DNA of 35,658 bases from a virus. The translations under genes and the position numbers were made by a program. The notes beneath the pieces are model-generated. The model was not told the DNA's origin, made no database searches, and was given only the letters and a program-made list of their open reading frames with translations. The stretch is taken from positions 1-35,658 of IMG/VR virus record IMGVR_UViG_3300043434_000752; one strand, written 5' to 3'. Shown in pieces: positions 11,526 through 29,027 of the stretch (positions are counted from its first letter, which is position 1; each line of letters starts with the position of its first letter).

Positions 11526-12365
11526 TTAAGTCCAAAGGCTTTCGCGAATTTTAATTAAACGAATCATCATTTGCTCGTCTTCTTTCATATACTGCTGTTC
11601 GATTTTGTGGCTGAGTTTCAGCGCTCTACGGCCCAATGCTTCAGTTTCTTTGTTGTTAGATTGAACACCAATCCAGCGTAGGCCTTCACCTTTTTCTTCT
11701 CGCATGCGATTACAGTATTCTGTCCAACCACTGGCATCGTGGGGATCTGGCCGATTTGGGTAAACTTCTGTCCACCACTTGTACAGTTCCAAAATTTCTT
11801 TAGCAGCTTTAGCTTGGTGAGTGGGTTTACCGATATTGGCACTGCCAGGTTCGCACTCGTCTTCTTTCCAAACTAATTCACTTTGCCATTTAAGATTATC
11901 TAAGCCGGCTTGTGGGCAACGCCAAACACGAAGATTCCACCAACCAAAACGCCACCACGGAGCATTGTATTTTTCTCGTTGCTCTTTGTCTTCCCATGCC
12001 AAATGCCACCACGCTAGTTCTACCTCAACATAATTAACAAGTTCATTGAATAAGCAAGGAAGAAAACGATTGCCCACATCACGCCACTCGCCACGAGGAA
12101 TATCCCTAGGGTTAGAGGTAAGAGCATGAGTCCTAGTAATCCAACGATTATTGATGTAATATTTGACAGCATAGATTTTATCAGGAATATACAGTAAAAC
12201 ATCTTGAATGCGATCAAGACCTTCTTCGGCAATCCACCAGCGAACAGGGTGGGCTGCACGGGCTTTAGTTTCCCATTCTTGCCATTGTTCGCCAGTACCC
12301 ATTTTAAGTTTGTGGGTACCACGAATCCAGTCGGCAAAAGGTGTGCAACTCCAATAATTTCTCAT
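11526..12365 (-). CDS. Conserved phage protein of unknown function, Trp-rich (279 aa)
   Basis: A 279-residue protein extremely rich in Trp and Arg (MRNYWSCTPFADWIRGT at the start, then APWWRFGWWNLRVW near 142). This type is frequent in uncultured aquatic phages without an assigned role. The region YPNRPDPHDASGWTEYC and the C-terminal helix with ALKLSHKIEQQYMKEDEQMM are distinctive. Its ATG overlaps the TGA of the YccA-like gene by 4 nt. There is no catalytic signature I recognise. Confidence 0.8.
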   Translation of the reverse strand: MRNYWSCTPFADWIRGTHKLKMGTGEQWQEWETKARAAHPVRWWIAEEGLDRIQDVLLYIPDKIYAVKYYINNRWITRTHALTSNPRDIPRGEWRDVGNRFLPCLFNELVNYVEVELAWWHLAWEDKEQREKYNAPWWRFGWWNLRVWRCPQAGLDNLKWQSELVWKEDECEPGSANIGKPTHQAKAAKEILELYKWWTEVYPNRPDPHDASGWTEYCNRMREEKGEGLRWIGVQSNNKETEALGRRALKLSHKIEQQYMKEDEQMMIRLIKIRESLWT

Positions 12366-13033
12366 TCTTTCTTTCCGCCAAACAGTTGAAGTAGGCTTAA
12401 AAACAAGTTAATAAAATCTAGGTACAGTGTTAGCGCACCTATTACCTCTTCGCGACCAGTTTCAGTATCACGGCTTACCAGTTCTCTGATGGTCTGTGTG
12501 TCGTAGGCAGTCAGTCCCAAAAAGATAATAGCCAATGCTGAGATCACCATCTGCATTACCGTGCTGCCAATAAAGATATTGACAATGCTGGCAAGACAAA
12601 TTGCAATCAAACCCACAAACAAGAACTGTCCGATACTAGTTAGATCTCGTTTGGTAAAGTAGCCATAAAAACTCATAGTACCAAACAAAATTGCTCCGCC
12701 CATGAACGCTGACACAATTGATCCCATGGTGTAGACAGCAAAGATAGTGCTAAAGCTCAAGCCCATCAGTGCAGCGAATCCATGTAAAAACACTTGTAGT
12801 CCCTGTGTGCTGAATCGCTCTGCAGCAAAGCTAAATGCTAGAATTGCCGCAAGGGGAGAAAAAATCACAATCCATTTCATAGCACCAGTAAAGAAAAACT
12901 CAAGTAATTCTGGTGTAGTACCAACAAAATAACTGATGATCATGCTGGTGGCGACAGCTAGACTCATGTGTTTGTAAACACGAGCCATTGCTTGATTGAT
13001 TTGACTTGCTGAACGATAAATTGCTAATTCCAT
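12362..13033 (-). CDS. Bax inhibitor-1 / YccA family membrane protein
   Basis: A 223-residue protein with seven hydrophobic segments and the family's C-terminal signature LGLTAYDTQTIRELV, followed by the EVIGALTLYLDFINLFLSLLQLFG block. In bacteria YccA interacts with and slows the membrane protease FtsH; related BI-1 proteins are pH-sensitive Ca2+ leak channels. The length matches YccA (219 aa). An AAGGAG Shine-Dalgarno lies 5 nt before the ATG. A phage copy could protect new membrane proteins or delay membrane-stress death; this is inference. Confidence 0.92.
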   Translation of the reverse strand: MELAIYRSASQINQAMARVYKHMSLAVATSMIISYFVGTTPELLEFFFTGAMKWIVIFSPLAAILAFSFAAERFSTQGLQVFLHGFAALMGLSFSTIFAVYTMGSIVSAFMGGAILFGTMSFYGYFTKRDLTSIGQFLFVGLIAICLASIVNIFIGSTVMQMVISALAIIFLGLTAYDTQTIRELVSRDTETGREEVIGALTLYLDFINLFLSLLQLFGGKKE

Positions 13034-17271: not shown

Positions 17272-17346
17272 TGGTCCGGCGTGCAGGAATCGAACCCACA
17301 TTCATCGGGTAGAAGCCGATTGTATTATCCATTATACTAACGCCAG
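17272..17346 (-). tRNA. tRNA-Arg (anticodon UCU), reads AGA/AGG
   Basis: A 75-nt cloverleaf on the minus strand. The acceptor 5' strand CTGGCGT pairs fully with ACGCCGG (one G-T), the D stem GTAT pairs with ATAC, and the anticodon stem ATCGG/CCGAT encloses CTTCTAC with anticodon TCT. The variable loop is short, the T stem is GTGGG/CCTGC around TTCGATT, and the discriminator is A with CCA encoded (17272-17274). It has its own promoter. tRNA-Arg(UCU) is the commonest tRNA in phages and serves AGA-rich late genes; this use is inference. Confidence 0.9.
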
Positions 17347-20157: not shown

Positions 20158-20320
20158 GGCGTTTAGTTCCAAATCCCGCAAGCATAATAGCAGCAACTTT
20201 ACCATACCATTGCCTTGCTGATGCTTCGTCATCGTATTCAGGACTGAGTTCCACATTGTGGTCTTGGCTGTCTACCCAAATATAAACTTCGTCAAAGTCA
20301 TCGTAGATTAAAGTCATCAT
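20150..20320 (-). CDS. Small protein (56 aa), unknown function
   Basis: A 56-codon frame MMTLIYDDFDEVYIWVDSQ..., acidic at the start and ending KVAAIMLAGFGTKRHD. The ATG overlaps the TGA of the HFGVK gene, whose GGAG supplies the Shine-Dalgarno. No other frame covers this stretch. I do not recognise a family. Confidence 0.65.
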   Translation of the reverse strand: MMTLIYDDFDEVYIWVDSQDHNVELSPEYDDEASARQWYGKVAAIMLAGFGTKRHD

Positions 20321-20544
20321 TTAACTCCAAAGTGTTGTTTGATGATTCGTGCAGCCGATTCAGCATCCATTGGGAAAGGTTCTTGTCGCCATTTTAGCAG
20401 TTCATTAGCACATTCTGCCACAATCAACTCGGCGAACTTTTCTGCAAAGTATCGAGGTTGTTCGTCAAAGTTAGCACCCAGGTCTATTTGTTCCCAAGCA
20501 TAGGCTGCAGCCTGTTCAGCAAGTTTTTCAATTCGTTCGTTCAT
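20317..20544 (-). CDS. HFGVEE-array paralogue A (75 aa)
   Basis: A member of the array of small proteins that begin MNERI..LA.QA and end KQHFGVK, with the internal FAEKFAELIVAEC motif at about residues 33-45. Mostly helical and acidic. Its TGA overlaps the start of the 56-aa gene and its start overlaps the next paralogue by 4 nt. Function unknown. Confidence 0.8.
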   Translation of the reverse strand: MNERIEKLAEQAAAYAWEQIDLGANFDEQPRYFAEKFAELIVAECANELLKWRQEPFPMDAESAARIIKQHFGVK

Positions 20545-20735
20545 TCTTTAACTCCGAAATGTTCTTTCATTTCCATAGCCACTTCAACCATGCCATCATT
20601 CTCCAACTTATGGCAACATTCTTTCACAACCTTCTTGACCAATTCTTCCAAGTTCTCTCTTGCTCCGGAGGAGTCGATGAACCCTCCGTTGTAATACTCG
20701 GTCATGACCTCTTCGATCATTTCTTTTGTGTTCAT
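20541..20735 (-). CDS. HFGVEE-array divergent paralogue B (64 aa)
   Basis: A 64-residue helical protein starting MNTKEMIEEVMTEYYNGGF, with LEELVKKVVKECCHKL in place of the FAELIVxEC motif, ending MKEHFGVKE. It keeps the array's last residues and coupling (ATGA), but the N-terminal half differs, so it is a distant member. Function unknown. Confidence 0.75.
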   Translation of the reverse strand: MNTKEMIEEVMTEYYNGGFIDSSGARENLEELVKKVVKECCHKLENDGMVEVAMEMKEHFGVKE

Positions 20736-20736
20736 C

Positions 20737-20955
20737 TCATTCTCCTCGGATCATAACAATGGTCTTGCCAGCCATAGCAGGATACTTGGCGCGGTCTTCT
20801 TCGCTAGTGTAGTCAATAACATAGCAATCAGAGATATCCACAGGCTTCATAGCCATCCAAGTGTCGTAGCCCTTGCTCTCCTCGACACCACACTCGACTT
20901 CTGCGTCCTGGGGGAGTGTCTTCATCCATTCGATCATTTGTGCTACAGTTGTCAT
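20737..20955 (-). CDS. Conserved small phage protein (72 aa)
   Basis: A 72-residue protein starting MTTVAQMIEWMKTLPQDAEVECGVEE; the MIEWLKTLPQDA pattern is common in small phage proteins of unknown role. Its C-terminus is a beta hairpin (GKTIVMIRGE). It is the first gene behind the consensus promoter at 20986-21014. Confidence 0.8.
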   Translation of the reverse strand: MTTVAQMIEWMKTLPQDAEVECGVEESKGYDTWMAMKPVDISDCYVIDYTSEEDRAKYPAMAGKTIVMIRGE

Positions 20956-20985
20956 CGTCTGCCCCTTATTTCTTACTATGTGTAT

Positions 20986-21014
20986 ATTATAGCAAAAACA
21001 GGAATTATTGTCAA
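20986..21014 (-). promoter_or_regulatory. Consensus sigma70 promoter, 20955-19450 operon
   Basis: TTGACA (21009-21014), 17-nt spacer ending TTTTTGC, TATAAT (20986-20991). It matches the consensus perfectly. Confidence 0.85.
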
Positions 21015-21046
21015 ACCAAAAAAAAGTAGTACTTGAGTATTACTTT
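21015..21046 (-). terminator. Terminator of the HFGVEE array
   Basis: AAAGTAATAC / GTACTACTTT stem (one mismatch) with a TCAA loop and a run of eight Ts on the minus strand. The TAA stop of the upstream gene (21040-21042) is inside the stem. The next promoter follows at once. Confidence 0.75.
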
Positions 21047-21321
21047 TTAAGAATATCCCAAGCAAGGCCATGCCAGGGTTTGAAGCTAATGATAGAGCCC
21101 ATCCAAGTTTTGTGATTGGTTACAATTTCCCACCACTCCATTTCAGTGTCACGGTATACAATGCGAACATTTTTGCCGTAAAGTCTTTGAAAGTATTCGA
21201 GCACATTTTCGGCATCATTGGTAACTGTCATTATAGCATCGCCATTAGCGTCACAGTCATCCTCAATGAAAACAATATTGTGTTCTACATTGCGATCAAC
21301 TATATCAAATTTTGATCTCAT
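21040..21321 (-). CDS. Hypothetical phage protein (93 aa)
   Basis: A 93-residue alpha/beta protein (NIVFIEDDCDANGDAIMTVTND, YGKNVRIVYRDTEMEWWEIV) ending SFKPWHGLAWDILKK. It is the last gene of the array operon and is started from the GGAG in the preceding HFGVEE tail. It resembles small phage proteins with no known function. Confidence 0.7.
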   Translation of the reverse strand: MRSKFDIVDRNVEHNIVFIEDDCDANGDAIMTVTNDAENVLEYFQRLYGKNVRIVYRDTEMEWWEIVTNHKTWMGSIISFKPWHGLAWDILKK

Positions 21322-21449
21322 TCTTCAACTCCGAAATGTTTCTTGTATGTTTTAGGGAACCACTTTTCAAGAATATAAAAGTAAAGTTGAGCAATGTAGT
21401 AGAATGGTAGCAACCATATCCAACTATAACCAAACTTTGGGTCTTTCAT
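21318..21449 (-). CDS. Small membrane protein with an HFGVEE tail (43 aa)
   Basis: MKDPKFGYS, then a hydrophobic aromatic helix (WIWLLPFYYIAQLYFYIL), then KKHFGVEE. It lacks the MNERI...FAELIV part of the array proteins but keeps their exact last six residues and the CGGAGTTGAAGAATGA coupling. It looks like an unrelated ORF that captured the tail. Function unknown. Confidence 0.65.
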   Translation of the reverse strand: MKDPKFGYSWIWLLPFYYIAQLYFYILEKWFPKTYKKHFGVEE

Positions 21450-21694
21450 TCTTCAACTCCGAAATGCTTTTTCAAAACTTCACTTGCTTCGTACTCCAGG
21501 AATTCAATGTAATCCAAACATCCTACTTCGTCTTCCACCGTGAACCCTTTTACTAAATCCATACATTCCCGAACAATCAACTCAGCAAACTTTTCTTTGT
21601 TGAATTCATAGTACCTTGTTGTACCATTTTCATCTGACCATCCTTCCACAACAGTAGTGGCCTGTTTCTCAAATTCTTTAATTCGTTCGTTCAT
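21446..21694 (-). CDS. HFGVEE-array paralogue C (82 aa)
   Basis: MNERIKEFEKQATTVV...FAELIVRECMDLV...KKHFGVEE. The middle differs from its neighbours and is acidic. Starts and stops overlap adjacent ORFs by 4 nt. Function unknown. Confidence 0.85.
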   Translation of the reverse strand: MNERIKEFEKQATTVVEGWSDENGTTRYYEFNKEKFAELIVRECMDLVKGFTVEDEVGCLDYIEFLEYEASEVLKKHFGVEE

Positions 21695-21870
21695 TCTTCA
21701 ACTCCGAAATGTTTTTCAATCAAATCCATATCTTCGTTATGATTACATTGTAAGGAACATTCTAATACAACTAATCTAGTGTACTCAATCAAGAACACAG
21801 GGTCGTAGTAATGAAAGTTAGGACCTTGATCTTTAGCCGCTTCAGCAATTTCCCACATACGGTCGTTCAT
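21691..21870 (-). CDS. HFGVEE-array paralogue D (59 aa)
   Basis: MNDRMWEIAEAAKDQGPNFH..., VVLECSLQ in place of FAELIVxEC, ending IEKHFGVEE. It is shorter than the others. ATGA overlaps on both sides show it is part of the coupled array. Confidence 0.75.
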   Translation of the reverse strand: MNDRMWEIAEAAKDQGPNFHYYDPVFLIEYTRLVVLECSLQCNHNEDMDLIEKHFGVEE

Positions 21871-22154
21871 TCTTCAACTCCGAAATGTTTCGTAAATCTT
21901 TCTTGCCAATCTCGCAACCATTCAATGCGTTCAGTTGGTCGCTCACTGGGATCAAAACAATGATAGGCATCATCTTCGGCTTGTTCCATTAAGCCACACA
22001 TTTCCCGAACAATCAACTCGGCGAACTTTAGCCTAAATGATCCGTCAAATACTCTTTTACTAATGGCCATTTCCGCCGGGCCCGGAACTTTAGCAAGTTC
22101 TTCCCAAGCATAAAATTCAGCCTGTTTAGCAAGTTCTTTAATTCGTTCGTTCAT
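21867..22154 (-). CDS. HFGVEE-array paralogue E (95 aa)
   Basis: I start at MNERIKELAKQAEFYAWEEL, since the longer frame to 22214 overlaps the upstream gene by 60 nt more. LKFAELIVREMCGLMEQ is followed by an insert with DAYHCFDPSERP and ERIEWLRDWQERFTKHFGVEE. It is the longest array member. Function unknown. Confidence 0.85.
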   Translation of the reverse strand: MNERIKELAKQAEFYAWEELAKVPGPAEMAISKRVFDGSFRLKFAELIVREMCGLMEQAEDDAYHCFDPSERPTERIEWLRDWQERFTKHFGVEE

Positions 22155-22369
22155 TCTTCCCACTCCTGTGCCATAGCGTCTGTCATAATCACTGTATCCA
22201 CTTTGTGGAAACAATCATCGTCTGTGTAATCTTCGCTTTGTGCTTTAATAAAATCAATGCGAGCCTGACGCTTTTGTTCGGAATCAAACACTTCACATGG
22301 GGTGTAGAATGTATTCCATTCTTCACGACTACCGTAATCTGTATCGTAATAAAGTAGATAGACTTTCAT
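22151..22369 (-). CDS. Hypothetical protein inside the array (72 aa)
   Basis: A 72-residue protein not related to the MNERI family: MKVYLLYYDTDYGSREEWNTFYTPCEVF, then DFIKAQSEDYTDDDCFHKVDTVIM. The strand-helix layout is small and compact. Its end, QEWEE, still carries a GGAG for the next ATG. It is likely a passenger gene of the array. Confidence 0.75.
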   Translation of the reverse strand: MKVYLLYYDTDYGSREEWNTFYTPCEVFDSEQKRQARIDFIKAQSEDYTDDDCFHKVDTVIMTDAMAQEWEE

Positions 22370-22641
22370 TCTTCAACTCCGAAATATTGTTCAATCATTT
22401 TAATGTTATCAATACACTTTTCTGCACAAACTTCGGCTTCATCACTATCATGCATATTGTCACATTCACTTGAATATGAGTAAAGTCTTTCTGATTCGGC
22501 AAATAGTAATTGAGCACACTCCTGCACAATCAACTCGGCGAACTTTGCTAAGAAAGCATCCAGTGGTTTATGATTCAGGTCAAACTCATTGCCGGTCTGG
22601 GCGTGGGCCTTCATTGCAATACCAATCCATCGTTCGTTCAT
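22366..22641 (-). CDS. HFGVEE-array paralogue F (91 aa)
   Basis: I start at MNERWIGIAMKAHAQ; the frame open to 22707 only runs over the upstream gene. It has FLAKFAELIVQECAQLLFAESERL, a Cys/Asp/Glu-rich middle and IEQYFGVEE at the end. Function unknown. Confidence 0.8.
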   Translation of the reverse strand: MNERWIGIAMKAHAQTGNEFDLNHKPLDAFLAKFAELIVQECAQLLFAESERLYSYSSECDNMHDSDEAEVCAEKCIDNIKMIEQYFGVEE

Positions 22642-22871
22642 TTCTTCATACTCCAAAACATTTCCCACCAACTGGTTGGTTTTGTCTCCACCTTTTCTTC
22701 CCACCATAACGCTTTCTCACCACAGCCAGTTTCATCTTTTCTATTTAAACTGGCATAATGGAGTTTAGCACTTCCATCAGACAAATCAATACCGTTCTTT
22801 GGGTTCCCACACCAAACTATTCCATTAGGGTAATACCTAACATGATGTTTACAGGAAGTGCAGTAAATCAT
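22638..22871 (-). CDS. Small zinc-ribbon-like protein inside the array (77 aa)
   Basis: MIYCTSCKHHVRYYPNGIVWCGNPKNG shows a CxxC followed by HH and a third Cys, with another Cys at ETGCGEK, so it may bind zinc. The C-terminus is Trp-rich (SWWEMFWSMKK). It is not related to the MNERI proteins but is coupled to them at both ends. Confidence 0.75.
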   Translation of the reverse strand: MIYCTSCKHHVRYYPNGIVWCGNPKNGIDLSDGSAKLHYASLNRKDETGCGEKALWWEEKVETKPTSWWEMFWSMKK

Positions 22872-23101
22872 TCTTCAACTCCAAATTGTTGTTTTACATA
22901 TCTATCAACCTGCTTGGTGATATCTTCATCACTAGTGGTATCTAGGTAATTTCTGTAAAAGTCTACAATACAATTCCGAACAATCAACTCGGCGAACTTT
23001 TCCAAGTCTAAATCTGCTTTAGAAATATAAAGCATATCACCATGAATAATCTTTACTTCCGCACCAGCCTGATTAGCCAGTTCTCGAATTCGTTCATTCA
23101 T
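22868..23101 (-). CDS. HFGVEE-array paralogue G (77 aa)
   Basis: MNERIRELANQAGAEVKIIHGDML, LEKFAELIVRNCIVDFYRNYL, ending VKQQFGVEE. Its first 13 residues are identical to those of the next paralogue upstream. ATGA coupling on both sides. Confidence 0.85.
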   Translation of the reverse strand: MNERIRELANQAGAEVKIIHGDMLYISKADLDLEKFAELIVRNCIVDFYRNYLDTTSDEDITKQVDRYVKQQFGVEE

Positions 23102-23298
23102 TCTTCAACTCCAAAATGTTTTTCAACATGTTCGGCAATAAAATCAATATCGTTCTTGATACAGAAGCGAATCCTGTCAGTACATTCCCCTACAATCAGC
23201 TCAGCGAACTTTTTAATCATATTGTTGTCATTGATGCCTTCATACGGCGCAACATGAAACCCAGCCTGATTAGCCAGTTCTCGAATTCGTTCATTCAT
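23098..23298 (-). CDS. HFGVEE-array paralogue H (66 aa)
   Basis: MNERIRELANQAGFHVAPYEG, IKKFAELIVGECTDRIRF, ending VEKHFGVEE. It shares the first 13 residues with paralogue G, suggesting a recent duplication of the 5' end. Function unknown. Confidence 0.85.
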   Translation of the reverse strand: MNERIRELANQAGFHVAPYEGINDNNMIKKFAELIVGECTDRIRFCIKNDIDFIAEHVEKHFGVEE

Positions 23299-23540
23299 TC
23301 TTCAACTCCAAAATGTTGTTCAATAAATTCTGCAGCTCGCAGCTGGCCAGCATACAGTTCATCATTCATGCCACGGTAGTAACATTGATCAAGGCATTCC
23401 TTGACAATCAACTTGGCGAATTTTTCTAACTCAGGATAAGCAGTATTTTCAAACATACCGTTCCCATATTCACTGGCATGTTCATCAAATATTTTAACTA
23501 AACCAGCCTGTTCAGCAAGTTCTTGAATTCGTTTGTTCAT
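23295..23540 (-). CDS. HFGVEE-array paralogue I (81 aa)
   Basis: MNKRIQELAEQAGLVKIFDEHASEYG, LEKFAKLIVKECLDQCYY, ending IEQHFGVEE. It is the first member of the family in transcription order. Its start overlaps the end of the 76-aa gene by 4 nt. Confidence 0.85.
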   Translation of the reverse strand: MNKRIQELAEQAGLVKIFDEHASEYGNGMFENTAYPELEKFAKLIVKECLDQCYYRGMNDELYAGQLRAAEFIEQHFGVEE

Positions 23541-23767
23541 ACATTACCTAATCCTATACGGCTGTAACCTAAATTACTGGCAATCTCTTTACGATCCTCC
23601 AGTAACTCCAGAGCACGTTGTTCTTCGGCATCAATATGTTTCAATGCGTCCTTGAGAGTCCTGCCAGTGGTGCCTACATACTGGACCCCGTCCTGCCAAT
23701 ATGCGTACTGCTCAATGCCTTCACGGATACCATTGTAGTATGCTTTATTCAAAAGTTTCTTATTCAT
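23537..23767 (-). CDS. Hypothetical phage protein (76 aa)
   Basis: MNKKLLNKAYYNGIREGIEQYAYWQDGVQYVGTTGRTL..., followed by a helix with EEQRALELLEDRKEIA. The YWQDGVQYVGTTGRTL part is a pattern known from small phage proteins. It is second in the operon and overlaps the 47-aa gene upstream by 8 nt. Confidence 0.75.
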   Translation of the reverse strand: MNKKLLNKAYYNGIREGIEQYAYWQDGVQYVGTTGRTLKDALKHIDAEEQRALELLEDRKEIASNLGYSRIGLGNV

Positions 23768-26810: not shown

Positions 26811-26824
26811 AGTTATTTATTAGT
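26811..26824 (-). promoter_or_regulatory. Late-promoter-like element, copy of that at 17227
   Basis: The same 14-mer ACTAATAAATAACT as upstream of the outer-membrane gene, here 94-107 nt upstream of the small exported protein and over the pstS stop. Confidence 0.3.
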
Positions 26825-27827
26825 GCTTGATTTGGCTCCAAACTTTTTGCCTAATCATATTTTGCAGTGATTCTGGCAAATGCACATAGTCTAGATCCTC
26901 ACTCATTTTCTTACCGTTCTTAAATGCCCAGTCAAAGAACTTGATAACTTCTTTGCTGGTTGTGGGATCTTTGGGATCTTTGTACATGACAATAAAACTA
27001 GCTGTGGTAATTGGCCAAGTGTCCTTGCCTGGTTGATTAACAATACTGATGCCCATGCCTGGAACTGAGAACCAGTCAGCACCAGCAGCTGCTGCAGCAA
27101 ATGTCAAGTCGTCGGGACTGACAAAGTTACCTGTTTTGTTTTGCAGCTGCATAAAAGTCATGTTGTTTTTCTTTACATAAGCATATTCCACATAACCAAT
27201 ACTGCCTTTGATTCTATTGACATTAGCAGCAACACCTTCGTTGCCTTTACCGCCAACTGAACTAGCTGCTGGCCATTTTACTGCTGCACCTTTTCCTACT
27301 TTTTTAGCCCAATCTTCGCTGGCTGATGACAAGTAGTCAGTAAAGTTAAAAGTTGTGCCGGAACCATCAGCACGATGCACAACTGTAATGTTTATGTCAG
27401 GTAATTTTTTGCCGGGATTTAACTGTTGCAGTTTTGGATCATTCCATTTTTGAATGTCGCCCATGAATACTTCAGCAAGTACAGTGCCTGTAATTTTAAG
27501 TTCGCCAGGTCGAAAACCTTCTAAGTTAACCACTGGCACTGTGCCACCGATAATTGCTGGAAACTGTACTTGGTTGAGCTTGTCCAGGTCTTCGCCTTTA
27601 ACAGGAGCGTCAGTGGCTCCAAAAGTCACAGTCTTGGCATTGATCTGTTTGATACCACCACTGCTGCCAATGCTTTGGTAGTTTAATTGAACACTGGTTT
27701 GCTTTTGATAAGCTTCGGCCCATTTAGCATAAATGGGATAAGGAAATGTTGCTCCTGCTCCAGTGATGTCTGCTGCTTGTGCTGAAACGGCAATGGCCGC
27801 CAGTAGTGTCAGTAATAGTTTTTTCAT
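26820..27827 (-). CDS. pstS: Phosphate-binding protein PstS
   Basis: A 335-residue periplasmic phosphate-binding protein with a signal peptide (MKKLLLTLLAAIAVSAQA, about 18 residues). Phosphate-site segments are present: GAGATFPYPIYAKW near 23-36, SIGSSGG near 53-59, GATDAP near 70-75 and HRADGSGTTF near 150-160. In bacteria it feeds PstSCAB; here only the binding protein is carried, as in many marine and freshwater phages, so it must work with host PstCAB. It could raise phosphate uptake during infection. An AGGAG lies 9 nt before the ATG. A possible but weak Pho-box half site is upstream. Terminated at 26731-26753. Confidence 0.95.
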   Translation of the reverse strand: MKKLLLTLLAAIAVSAQAADITGAGATFPYPIYAKWAEAYQKQTSVQLNYQSIGSSGGIKQINAKTVTFGATDAPVKGEDLDKLNQVQFPAIIGGTVPVVNLEGFRPGELKITGTVLAEVFMGDIQKWNDPKLQQLNPGKKLPDINITVVHRADGSGTTFNFTDYLSSASEDWAKKVGKGAAVKWPAASSVGGKGNEGVAANVNRIKGSIGYVEYAYVKKNNMTFMQLQNKTGNFVSPDDLTFAAAAAGADWFSVPGMGISIVNQPGKDTWPITTASFIVMYKDPKDPTTSKEVIKFFDWAFKNGKKMSEDLDYVHLPESLQNMIRQKVWSQIKH

Positions 27828-27885: not shown

Positions 27886-28062
27886 TTACACTGTGTAAAA
27901 TCTATGTTTGGCCGCACAGGTCACACAAGGTCCTATGCGTTTTTTGTCGCAGTCTGGACAGAGTTTAATGGTTTGAGTTGTAATATGACGAGGAAATAAA
28001 ATTTCCTGCTCGTATTTGCCAGGTTTACTGGTGTCTCCGCAGAGTGTTTTTGGTTCGGACAT
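27886..28062 (-). CDS. Small zinc-ribbon-like protein (58 aa)
   Basis: Cysteines are spaced as in zinc ribbons: C8, then CPDC (35-38) and CVTC (46-49) with a downstream His. I start at MSEPKTLC, with AAGGG about 9 nt upstream; an ATG two codons earlier (28068) is too close to that site. It lies between the tmRNA terminator and pstS. A Zn-dependent nucleic-acid or protein contact is possible; no family recognised. Confidence 0.7.
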   Translation of the reverse strand: MSEPKTLCGDTSKPGKYEQEILFPRHITTQTIKLCPDCDKKRIGPCVTCAAKHRFYTV

Positions 28063-28116
28063 AAACATTAACCCTTATATATGTTTAACGCCAATGTCAC
28101 TGTTAAGTTGACAAAC

Positions 28117-28138
28117 AAAAAGGCCTTGCGGCCTTTTT
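28117..28138 (-). terminator. Rho-independent terminator of the tmRNA
   Basis: AAAAAGGCC / GGCCTTTTT 9-bp stem with a 4-nt loop. It is symmetric, so it would work on both strands. It closes the tmRNA unit. Confidence 0.9.
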
Positions 28139-28144
28139 GGTTAT

Positions 28145-28510
28145 TTTGGGTAAAAAGGCATAACTGCCCCTGGTATGGCTATCAGGCCATTACAGCTTCA
28201 CGGCGTGCAGAAGCAAGCTTGACGCCTTTTCCGCTGAACTTGAAGCTACCTTTTGTAGATGCTGTTGCATTTACTAGATTTATGCGATTTACGGTCGTCA
28301 TCTACCGTGCTGTCCGGGCAAATACTAGATCGCCTGTCGAACCTATTTCCGGCCCATTAGGAGTAATACTGGAATACAGTTTATAAGCGAATCTTTGAAG
28401 TTATCTCTTGACCTTACGGCTACATCGCTATCCAATATTACTTCTGGTGGACCGGGCGGGGAACTGCCCCCCGCGTCCAGTCAATTGTTCTTATTCCTTC
28501 ATACAGCAAT
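28145..28510 (-). ncRNA. ssrA: Permuted (two-piece) tmRNA precursor
   Basis: On the minus strand the acceptor piece comes first: T arm at 28456-28474, acceptor 3' strand CCGGTCC at 28449-28455, discriminator A, encoded CCA (28445-28447). About 90 nt later the coding piece begins with GGGCCGG (28349-28355), which pairs in all seven positions with CCGGTCC, giving the G3-U70 pair that marks alanine tRNAs. It is followed by the conserved D-domain GGTTCGACAGG. The intervening segment has ends that pair (10-11 bp). A pseudoknot (ACGG/CCGT and TAGAT/ATCTA, 28275-28308) sits before the resume site. The tag runs 28271-28185 (29 codons, starting AAT GCA ACA, ending GTA ATG GCC TGA), and the stop is in a hairpin loop (28175-28190). 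The T loop (GGCAGTT) lacks TTCRANY. Its promoter is at 28518-28546. Very sure of tmRNA; exact mature ends are uncertain. Confidence 0.92.
28182..28271 (-). other. tmRNA tag reading frame (29 codons + stop)
   Basis: Reads N-A-T-A-S-T-K-G... and ends A-R-R-E-A-V-M-A, then TGA followed by an in-frame TAG. It is longer than the 10-15 residue tags of most bacteria and basic in the middle, but the terminal hydrophobic V-M-A resembles the protease-recognised end (LAA/VAA). If the resume codon is GCA the tag starts one codon later. Confidence 0.8.
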
Positions 28511-28517
28511 AACTTAC

Positions 28518-28546
28518 AGTATATATTTATTTTGATTCTTTGTCAA
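28518..28546 (-). promoter_or_regulatory. Consensus sigma70 promoter of the tmRNA
   Basis: TTGACA (28541-28546), 17-nt spacer, TATACT (28518-28523). It overlaps the 3' end of the upstream gene. Confidence 0.85.
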
Positions 28547-29027
28547 CTTCTGACTCTTCTTCATTTTCGTCTTTTGATTTTTTGTCAGACTTTAATTGTT
28601 CTTTTACTTCTTGTTCAATTCTGTCTGCTGCAGTGTTCAAAGCCATTTTACCTAGTGCTTTAACTCTGTCATTTTTGGCTAGAGTTTTACCTACTGCCAG
28701 TGCCAATGCTGCTGCTTCAGATTTCTTATTGTCTTTTGTGTCTTGTTTAGTTTGGGACTGTGATGCTGCCAGACTTTGATTTGATTGAGTTTGTGCTCTT
28801 TCTGCTTTAATTGTGTCACTGCGATGTTGATTCAGTGCTGCTGCTAACTTAGTATAATTAAATTCTTCTACCTTGCGACGAGTAAACAACGGTGCGATTT
28901 CAACAAAAAACATCATCAGCATAAGAGCAAAGGCCAGGCCCCATTGTTCAAAGTAAATGTTAGCCGTTAATAAAACAAAAACAACAGAGTATAATAATAT
29001 ACTTTCTTGCCGTTCTGACAGTTTCAT
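28527..29027 (-). CDS. Two-helix membrane protein with charged cytosolic tail (166 aa)
   Basis: Two adjacent hydrophobic helices (about 8-26 and 28-48) form an N-terminal hairpin, followed by a Gln/Ser/Lys-rich helix (ALNQHRSDTIKAERAQTQSNQ) and an acidic and basic tail. This could anchor a coiled coil at the membrane. Family unknown. It is coupled to the 45-aa gene (TAATG) and its 3' end contains the tmRNA promoter. Confidence 0.75.
   Translation of the reverse strand: MKLSERQESILLYSVVFVLLTANIYFEQWGLAFALMLMMFFVEIAPLFTRRKVEEFNYTKLAAALNQHRSDTIKAERAQTQSNQSLAASQSQTKQDTKDNKKSEAAALALAVGKTLAKNDRVKALGKMALNTAADRIEQEVKEQLKSDKKSKDENEEESEVDKESK

Follow-up and report, generated by a model that had tools for sequence, protein, structure and literature searches.

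tmRNA is an RNA that rescues stalled ribosomes, and its tag is the peptide label that it adds to unfinished proteins. Phage-encoded ssrA genes are known from mycobacteriophages such as Bxz1 and from Bacillus phage G, and are not described there as two-piece (PMC4131195). A complete permuted ssrA of the alpha type has been reported in the T4-like Methylophilales phage Melnitz (PMC9004378). The gene described here is phage-encoded like all of these, has the two-piece form not described for Bxz1 and phage G, and resembles Melnitz in its completeness, its alpha-type character and its T4-like setting. A 2025 database holds 79 phage tmRNA sequences of all forms (PMC11915505), and the two-piece form accounts for 53 of 133 unique phage tmRNA structures (PMC9004378). 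A conserved-motif scan of viral contigs returned at least 119 stretches. The rarity that a preliminary description of the present locus had ascribed to permuted phage tmRNAs was thus overstated.

The window, that is, the whole stretch of DNA analysed, is an entire IMG/VR record of 35,658 bases. Its minus strand carries, at about 28511-28116, a complete permuted (two-piece) tmRNA gene whose segments can be read directly from the sequence (Table 1). The gene matches the covariance models RF04321 (tmRNA_permuted; 86.2 bits, E 2.2e-15, over 28508-28241 minus) and RF01849 (alpha_tmRNA; 63.4 bits), in both cases above the curated cut-offs of 47 and 50 bits, respectively, and ARAGORN calls a permuted tmRNA (tmRNA*) at 28091-28539 minus. 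A 376-nt strand folds with z = -3.9 versus shuffles. The preliminary description had read the locus as a phage permuted tmRNA and had proposed covariance models, folding of the precursor and persistence of the paired strands in related phages as checks; all three, together with the ARAGORN call and recurrence in related phages, uphold that reading. The locus is a phage-encoded two-piece tmRNA gene with its own promoter and terminator, identified computationally. A second contig (L062/L121) carries the same gene and is 99.994% identical to the window over 15.8 kb, so the sequence and the tag are not a single-assembly error. This contig represents the same virus; it was rejected as an independent relative and left out of independent counts.

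Table 1. Features of the two-piece tmRNA gene, listed 5' to 3' along the minus strand of the window.
Feature	Position	Strand	Remark
sigma70-type promoter TTGACA-N17-TATACT	28518-28546	-	11/12 consensus matches
Acceptor piece (3' half of tRNA-like domain and P2 3' strand), CCA end	28445-28508	-	5' boundary putative
T-arm, 6-bp stem GCGGGG/CCCCGC, loop GGCAGUU	28474-28456	-	sequence
3' acceptor strand CCGGUCC-A-CCA	28455-28445	-	sequence read
Intervening spacer, 89 nt, expected to be removed	28356-28444	-	nearly the same spacer in L206 and L202
5' acceptor strand GGGCCGG	28355-28349	-	sequence read
D-domain motif GAAAUAGGUUCGACAGG	28349-28333	-	sequence, covariance match
P2 5' strand ACAGCA	28308-28313	-	pairs with UGCUGU 28508-28503
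Pre-tag pseudoknot region, putative	28275-28308	-	stem 1 ACGG/CCGU
Tag reading frame GCA...GCC, 28 codons, ATASTKGSFKFSGKGVKLASARREAVMA	28185-28268	-	resume codon GCA at 28268
Stop hairpin AUGGC-CUGAUA-GCCAU	28175-28190	-	UGA in loop, UAG overlaps 3' arm
Intrinsic terminator stem-loop CAAAAAGGCC GCAA GGCCTTTTTG	28116-28139	-	same palindrome listed on + strand by scan

The order of segments first proposed, a CCA-bearing 3' strand followed by the spacer and the 5' strand, was recovered, and the two acceptor strands pair at 7/7 positions, including the alanine identity pair G3-U70. The ends of the spacer, for which a pairing of 10-11 bp had been claimed, pair over 12 bp (AGUAAUAUUGGA/UCCAGUAUUACU, 28442-28431 with 28373-28362). 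The promoter, the D-domain consensus, the stop codon in a hairpin loop and the terminator were likewise located, the terminator stem falling just beyond the interval originally given. The pseudoknot placed before the tag has partial support: stem 1 covaries in the relatives L245 and L260, and stem 2 is tentative. The promoter overlaps the end of an upstream ORF (28527-29027). A promoter scoring at least 11/12 is found in the same position in six genes (window, L243, L248, L249, L253 and L261), and none of 400 random 90-nt control stretches reached 11/12. Terminator-like hairpins lie 3' of the gene in 19 of the 20 family members.

The T-arm is identical in L202-L206 and L114. A search pattern with a T-arm stem of 5 bp failed to match even the window, and a 6-bp stem was used instead. 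The T-arm core GGGGGGCAGTTCCCC, with its 6-bp stem, was also seen in bacterial MAGs (L208-L240) named as Bacillota, Eremiobacterota, Caenarcaniphilales and Melainabacteria, where it probably belongs to one-piece tmRNAs; four MAG genomes with this core gave no permuted tmRNA match.

Relatives of the window were found via the DNA ligase (68-74% identity), the T-arm or the tag, and reach up to 338 kb. A T4-like gp23 capsid gene is present in four, one of which has a capsid protein with 66-69% identity to those of jumbo phages such as Phosso and PA5oct. The size, gp23 genes and capsid identity of these relatives make it very probable that the window is part of the genome of a large T4-like phage. 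The genes on this fragment encode a tail fibre, DNA ligase, PstS, a peptidase and a metallophosphoesterase, with tail, ligase and PstS as PHROG matches. The gene for the PstS phosphate-binding protein lies at 26820-27827 minus, a gene for a Bax1-I (BI-1-like) membrane protein at 12362-13033 minus, and a tRNA-Arg (TCT) gene at 17272-17346 minus, the same tRNA being present in the syntenic relative L264. An array of consecutive short genes (about 60-115 aa; 20300-23560 minus) carries the plus-strand repeats TCATTCTTCAACTCC at gene starts and CAATCAACTCGGCGAACTTT near gene ends, and is probably a paralogous small-protein family.

A permuted tmRNA scored above the cut-off in 16 of 50 related or pattern-matched viral records, a proportion that is no frequency estimate, nine of the 50 having been picked by their T-arm pattern. 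The covariance score of the window gene is below that of 13 of the 15 other tmRNA-bearing records. P1 pairs 7/7 in all 20 family members, across six sequence types. For the 6-bp P2 segment, a gene's own strands pair 6/6 in 80% of genes, versus 29% of mixed pairs of different type. On these comparisons helices P1 and P2 covary. A blastn search of the tmRNA gene against 50,697 phage records gave no match.

The most unusual part of the gene is the tag, which the preliminary description did not cover. Canonical ssrA tags are short, usually start AN... and end in Ala-Ala, whereas the window tag has 28 aa and a net charge of +5, starts ATAST and ends -VMA; two stops, UGA-UAG, follow it at 28184-28179. 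Among 77 distinct permuted tags from viral contigs the median length is 14, and 70 end in -AA; the other seven are five variants of the window tag and two doubtful calls. The net charge of the tag group is +4 to +6, versus a mean of -1.44 (sd 1.18) for viral permuted tags. A near-identical tag is found in five further viruses (L259, L260, L261, L262, which equals L255, and L263/L264, which are one virus), all with genes exceeding the RF04321 cut-off, and a profile-based scan found no carriers beyond these five. The shared pattern is A(T/K)AST(K/S/N)GSFKFSGKGVKLASA(R/A)REA(V/I)(M/L)A, giving a C-terminus of -[VI][LM]A throughout the group. The resume context UAAAUGCA and the stop hairpin are retained in these viruses, and the Met/Leu change in the tag is accompanied by a compensating base in the hairpin.

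Variation in tag codons 16-24 is mostly synonymous, and dN/dS relative to the window is 0.14-0.41, calculated over very few sites. At least 12 of the 28 codons are invariant even at third positions, twelve of them within codons 1-15 and several later. With codon statistics this weak, selection on the tag peptide is suggested, not proven; given the twelve codons that show no third-position change, recent shuffling may account for the conservation of the tag more than selection on the peptide does. Other members of the clade have longer tags as well (L241, L242 and L244), L241 and L242 sharing an AxxST start; the L242 tag was read by hand from the sequence and differs from the ARAGORN call. The tag peptide had no match in the 50,697 phage records. 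It also had none in 149 bacterial genomes, a search that is uninformative on the host, being of a phylum that is not a likely host and having no positive control. A weak resemblance of the tag to a KGVKAAAARARKAL-type phage protein (best E about 0.6) was dismissed as a chance match.

The gene has a split affinity. Window positions 28286-28515, covering the acceptor piece, spacer, 5' strand and pre-tag region, are 94-95% identical to L206 and L202, whereas the DNA ligase region of L206 is only about 72% identical to the window. Positions 27914-28349, covering the D-motif, tag, terminator and next gene, are 88.6% identical to L263/L264, a virus that is syntenic with the window and about 80% identical elsewhere, with an unrelated acceptor half. 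By computational comparison, therefore, the window gene is a mosaic of two phage lineages, with exchange boundaries at the conserved D-motif and just upstream of the tag. In L255, L259, L260 and L261 the tag sits on other tRNA-like halves and spacers. This and the split identity lead us to infer recombination within phage tmRNA genes, with the tag moving as a cassette.

In the proposed mechanism, one transcript would be made from the gene's own promoter, host tRNA-processing enzymes would cut it at the CCA and at the 5' acceptor end with loss of the spacer, and the two RNA pieces would remain paired via P1 and P2. Alanyl-tRNA synthetase would charge the tmRNA via G3-U70, and SmpB would bring the charged tmRNA to stalled ribosomes. 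A search for SmpB that was positive in 10 bacteria as a control found no such gene in 25 related phage records, although these are fragments and the gene could sit on a missing part; the phage tmRNA is thus presumed to use host SmpB. The phage-specific basic tag, with a hydrophobic residue and a single Ala at its C-terminus, would then be added, and the ribosome freed during infection. It is considered highly likely that the two-piece tmRNA gene is functional, belongs to a large T4-like phage and rescues ribosomes by adding a basic tag of 28 aa.

The fate of the tagged protein is less certain. The tag may act as a C-terminal degron for ClpXP or another protease, joined to a conserved basic middle segment with a putative partner. 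Bacteria degrade tag variants with the C-termini -LVA, -AAV and -ASV, and of the three tested in Salmonella the -LVA variant was lost most quickly, in part independently of ClpXP (PMC11003136); tags ending -VLA or -VMA could thus be degraded too. Since the window tag keeps the hydrophobic residue and Ala, a working degron is favoured as the somewhat more probable reading. Less probably, the RNA rescues ribosomes with a tag that is no proteolysis signal, the product being spared or sent to nucleic acid, membrane or a phage factor via the basic segment. The outlying charge points this way, as does the near-solitary position of the tag group in lacking terminal Ala-Ala, a change common to six viruses; however, all members keep the C-terminal Ala after a hydrophobic residue, and the strong degradation of -LVA tags in Salmonella also argues for the degron.

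A further alternative is a tmRNA in decay, or a decoy acting by titration of SmpB or by a block on trans-translation in the host, a role suggested for mycobacteriophage DS6A, whose form is tRNA-like only (PMC4131195). This would be consistent with the low covariance score of the window gene and with a tag unlike all usual tags. However, the gene retains an intact promoter, both acceptor strands, a resume signal, an uninterrupted tag frame and a stop hairpin, some of them covarying, and the tag is common to five other viruses, which makes a decoy improbable. A host ssrA copy carried as an integration remnant is hardly credible: ssrA genes are common integration sites (PMC11915505), but this one is complete, sits among phage genes and has a promoter and terminator of its own, no integrase was seen among the proteins scanned (part of the window ORFs), and recurrence in T4-like relatives with gp23 largely refutes the idea. 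Beyond the favoured rescue function, it is conceivable, as a tentative extension, that large T4-like phages rebuilt the tag into a long, basic form without Ala-Ala, exchanged as a cassette between tRNA-like halves, and that it marks proteins for a fate unlike that of host tagging.

Many other viral permuted tmRNAs have a small protein gene in the spacer, whose ribosome-binding (Shine-Dalgarno) site lies beside the CCA and whose stop codon falls at the 5' acceptor end (L027, L070, L072, L049, L101, L011, L110, L019, L034, L094, L029, L025 and others). Between related pairs, most differences fall at third codon positions (L027/L070: dN 0.18, dS 1.4; L072/L049: dN 0.13, dS 1.0), with dN/dS of about 0.1-0.3, and the spacer ORFs thus look like real genes. 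A homologue of the L027 spacer protein is encoded just upstream of the Melnitz tmRNA. The window's own spacer has no such protein gene. The papers searched gave no description of such nesting of a protein gene within a tmRNA spacer.

Among known systems, Melnitz has a tag of the usual kind (ANDNYVPVDYALAA), in contrast to the long, basic window tag. A glutamine riboswitch is reported for the Melnitz gene (PMC9004378), whereas none was found in the window, and the 6-bp T-arm stem of the window is also unlike Melnitz. The window gene shares segment order, tRNA-like domain and resume context with the consensus of RF04321 and RF01849 (PMC11915505), and deviates from it in the tag and in T-arm stem length. 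The Sinorhizobium jumbo phage Phosso (PV764938.1), which shares 69% capsid protein identity with a tmRNA-bearing relative, also has a permuted tmRNA (RF04321, 113.3 bits). This gene, at L285 1699-1097 minus, corresponding to about 349,596-350,198 of PV764938.1, is unannotated in the record. Phosso has a canonical tag (ANDNVSTKVALAA) and a spacer of more than 400 nt, whereas the window has a non-canonical tag and a spacer of 89 nt. The literature searched, mostly outside subscription journals, gave no description of a long basic tag without Ala-Ala or of cassette behaviour. As two-piece phage tmRNAs are already published, the novelty of the window gene rests in its tag and the cassette behaviour of that tag. 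In phages, tmRNA halves and tags would recombine as separate modules. With a tag that phages retain while exchanging the remainder of the gene, the purpose of phage tmRNAs becomes testable, including whether the tag leads to destruction, sparing or rerouting of the proteins that carry it.
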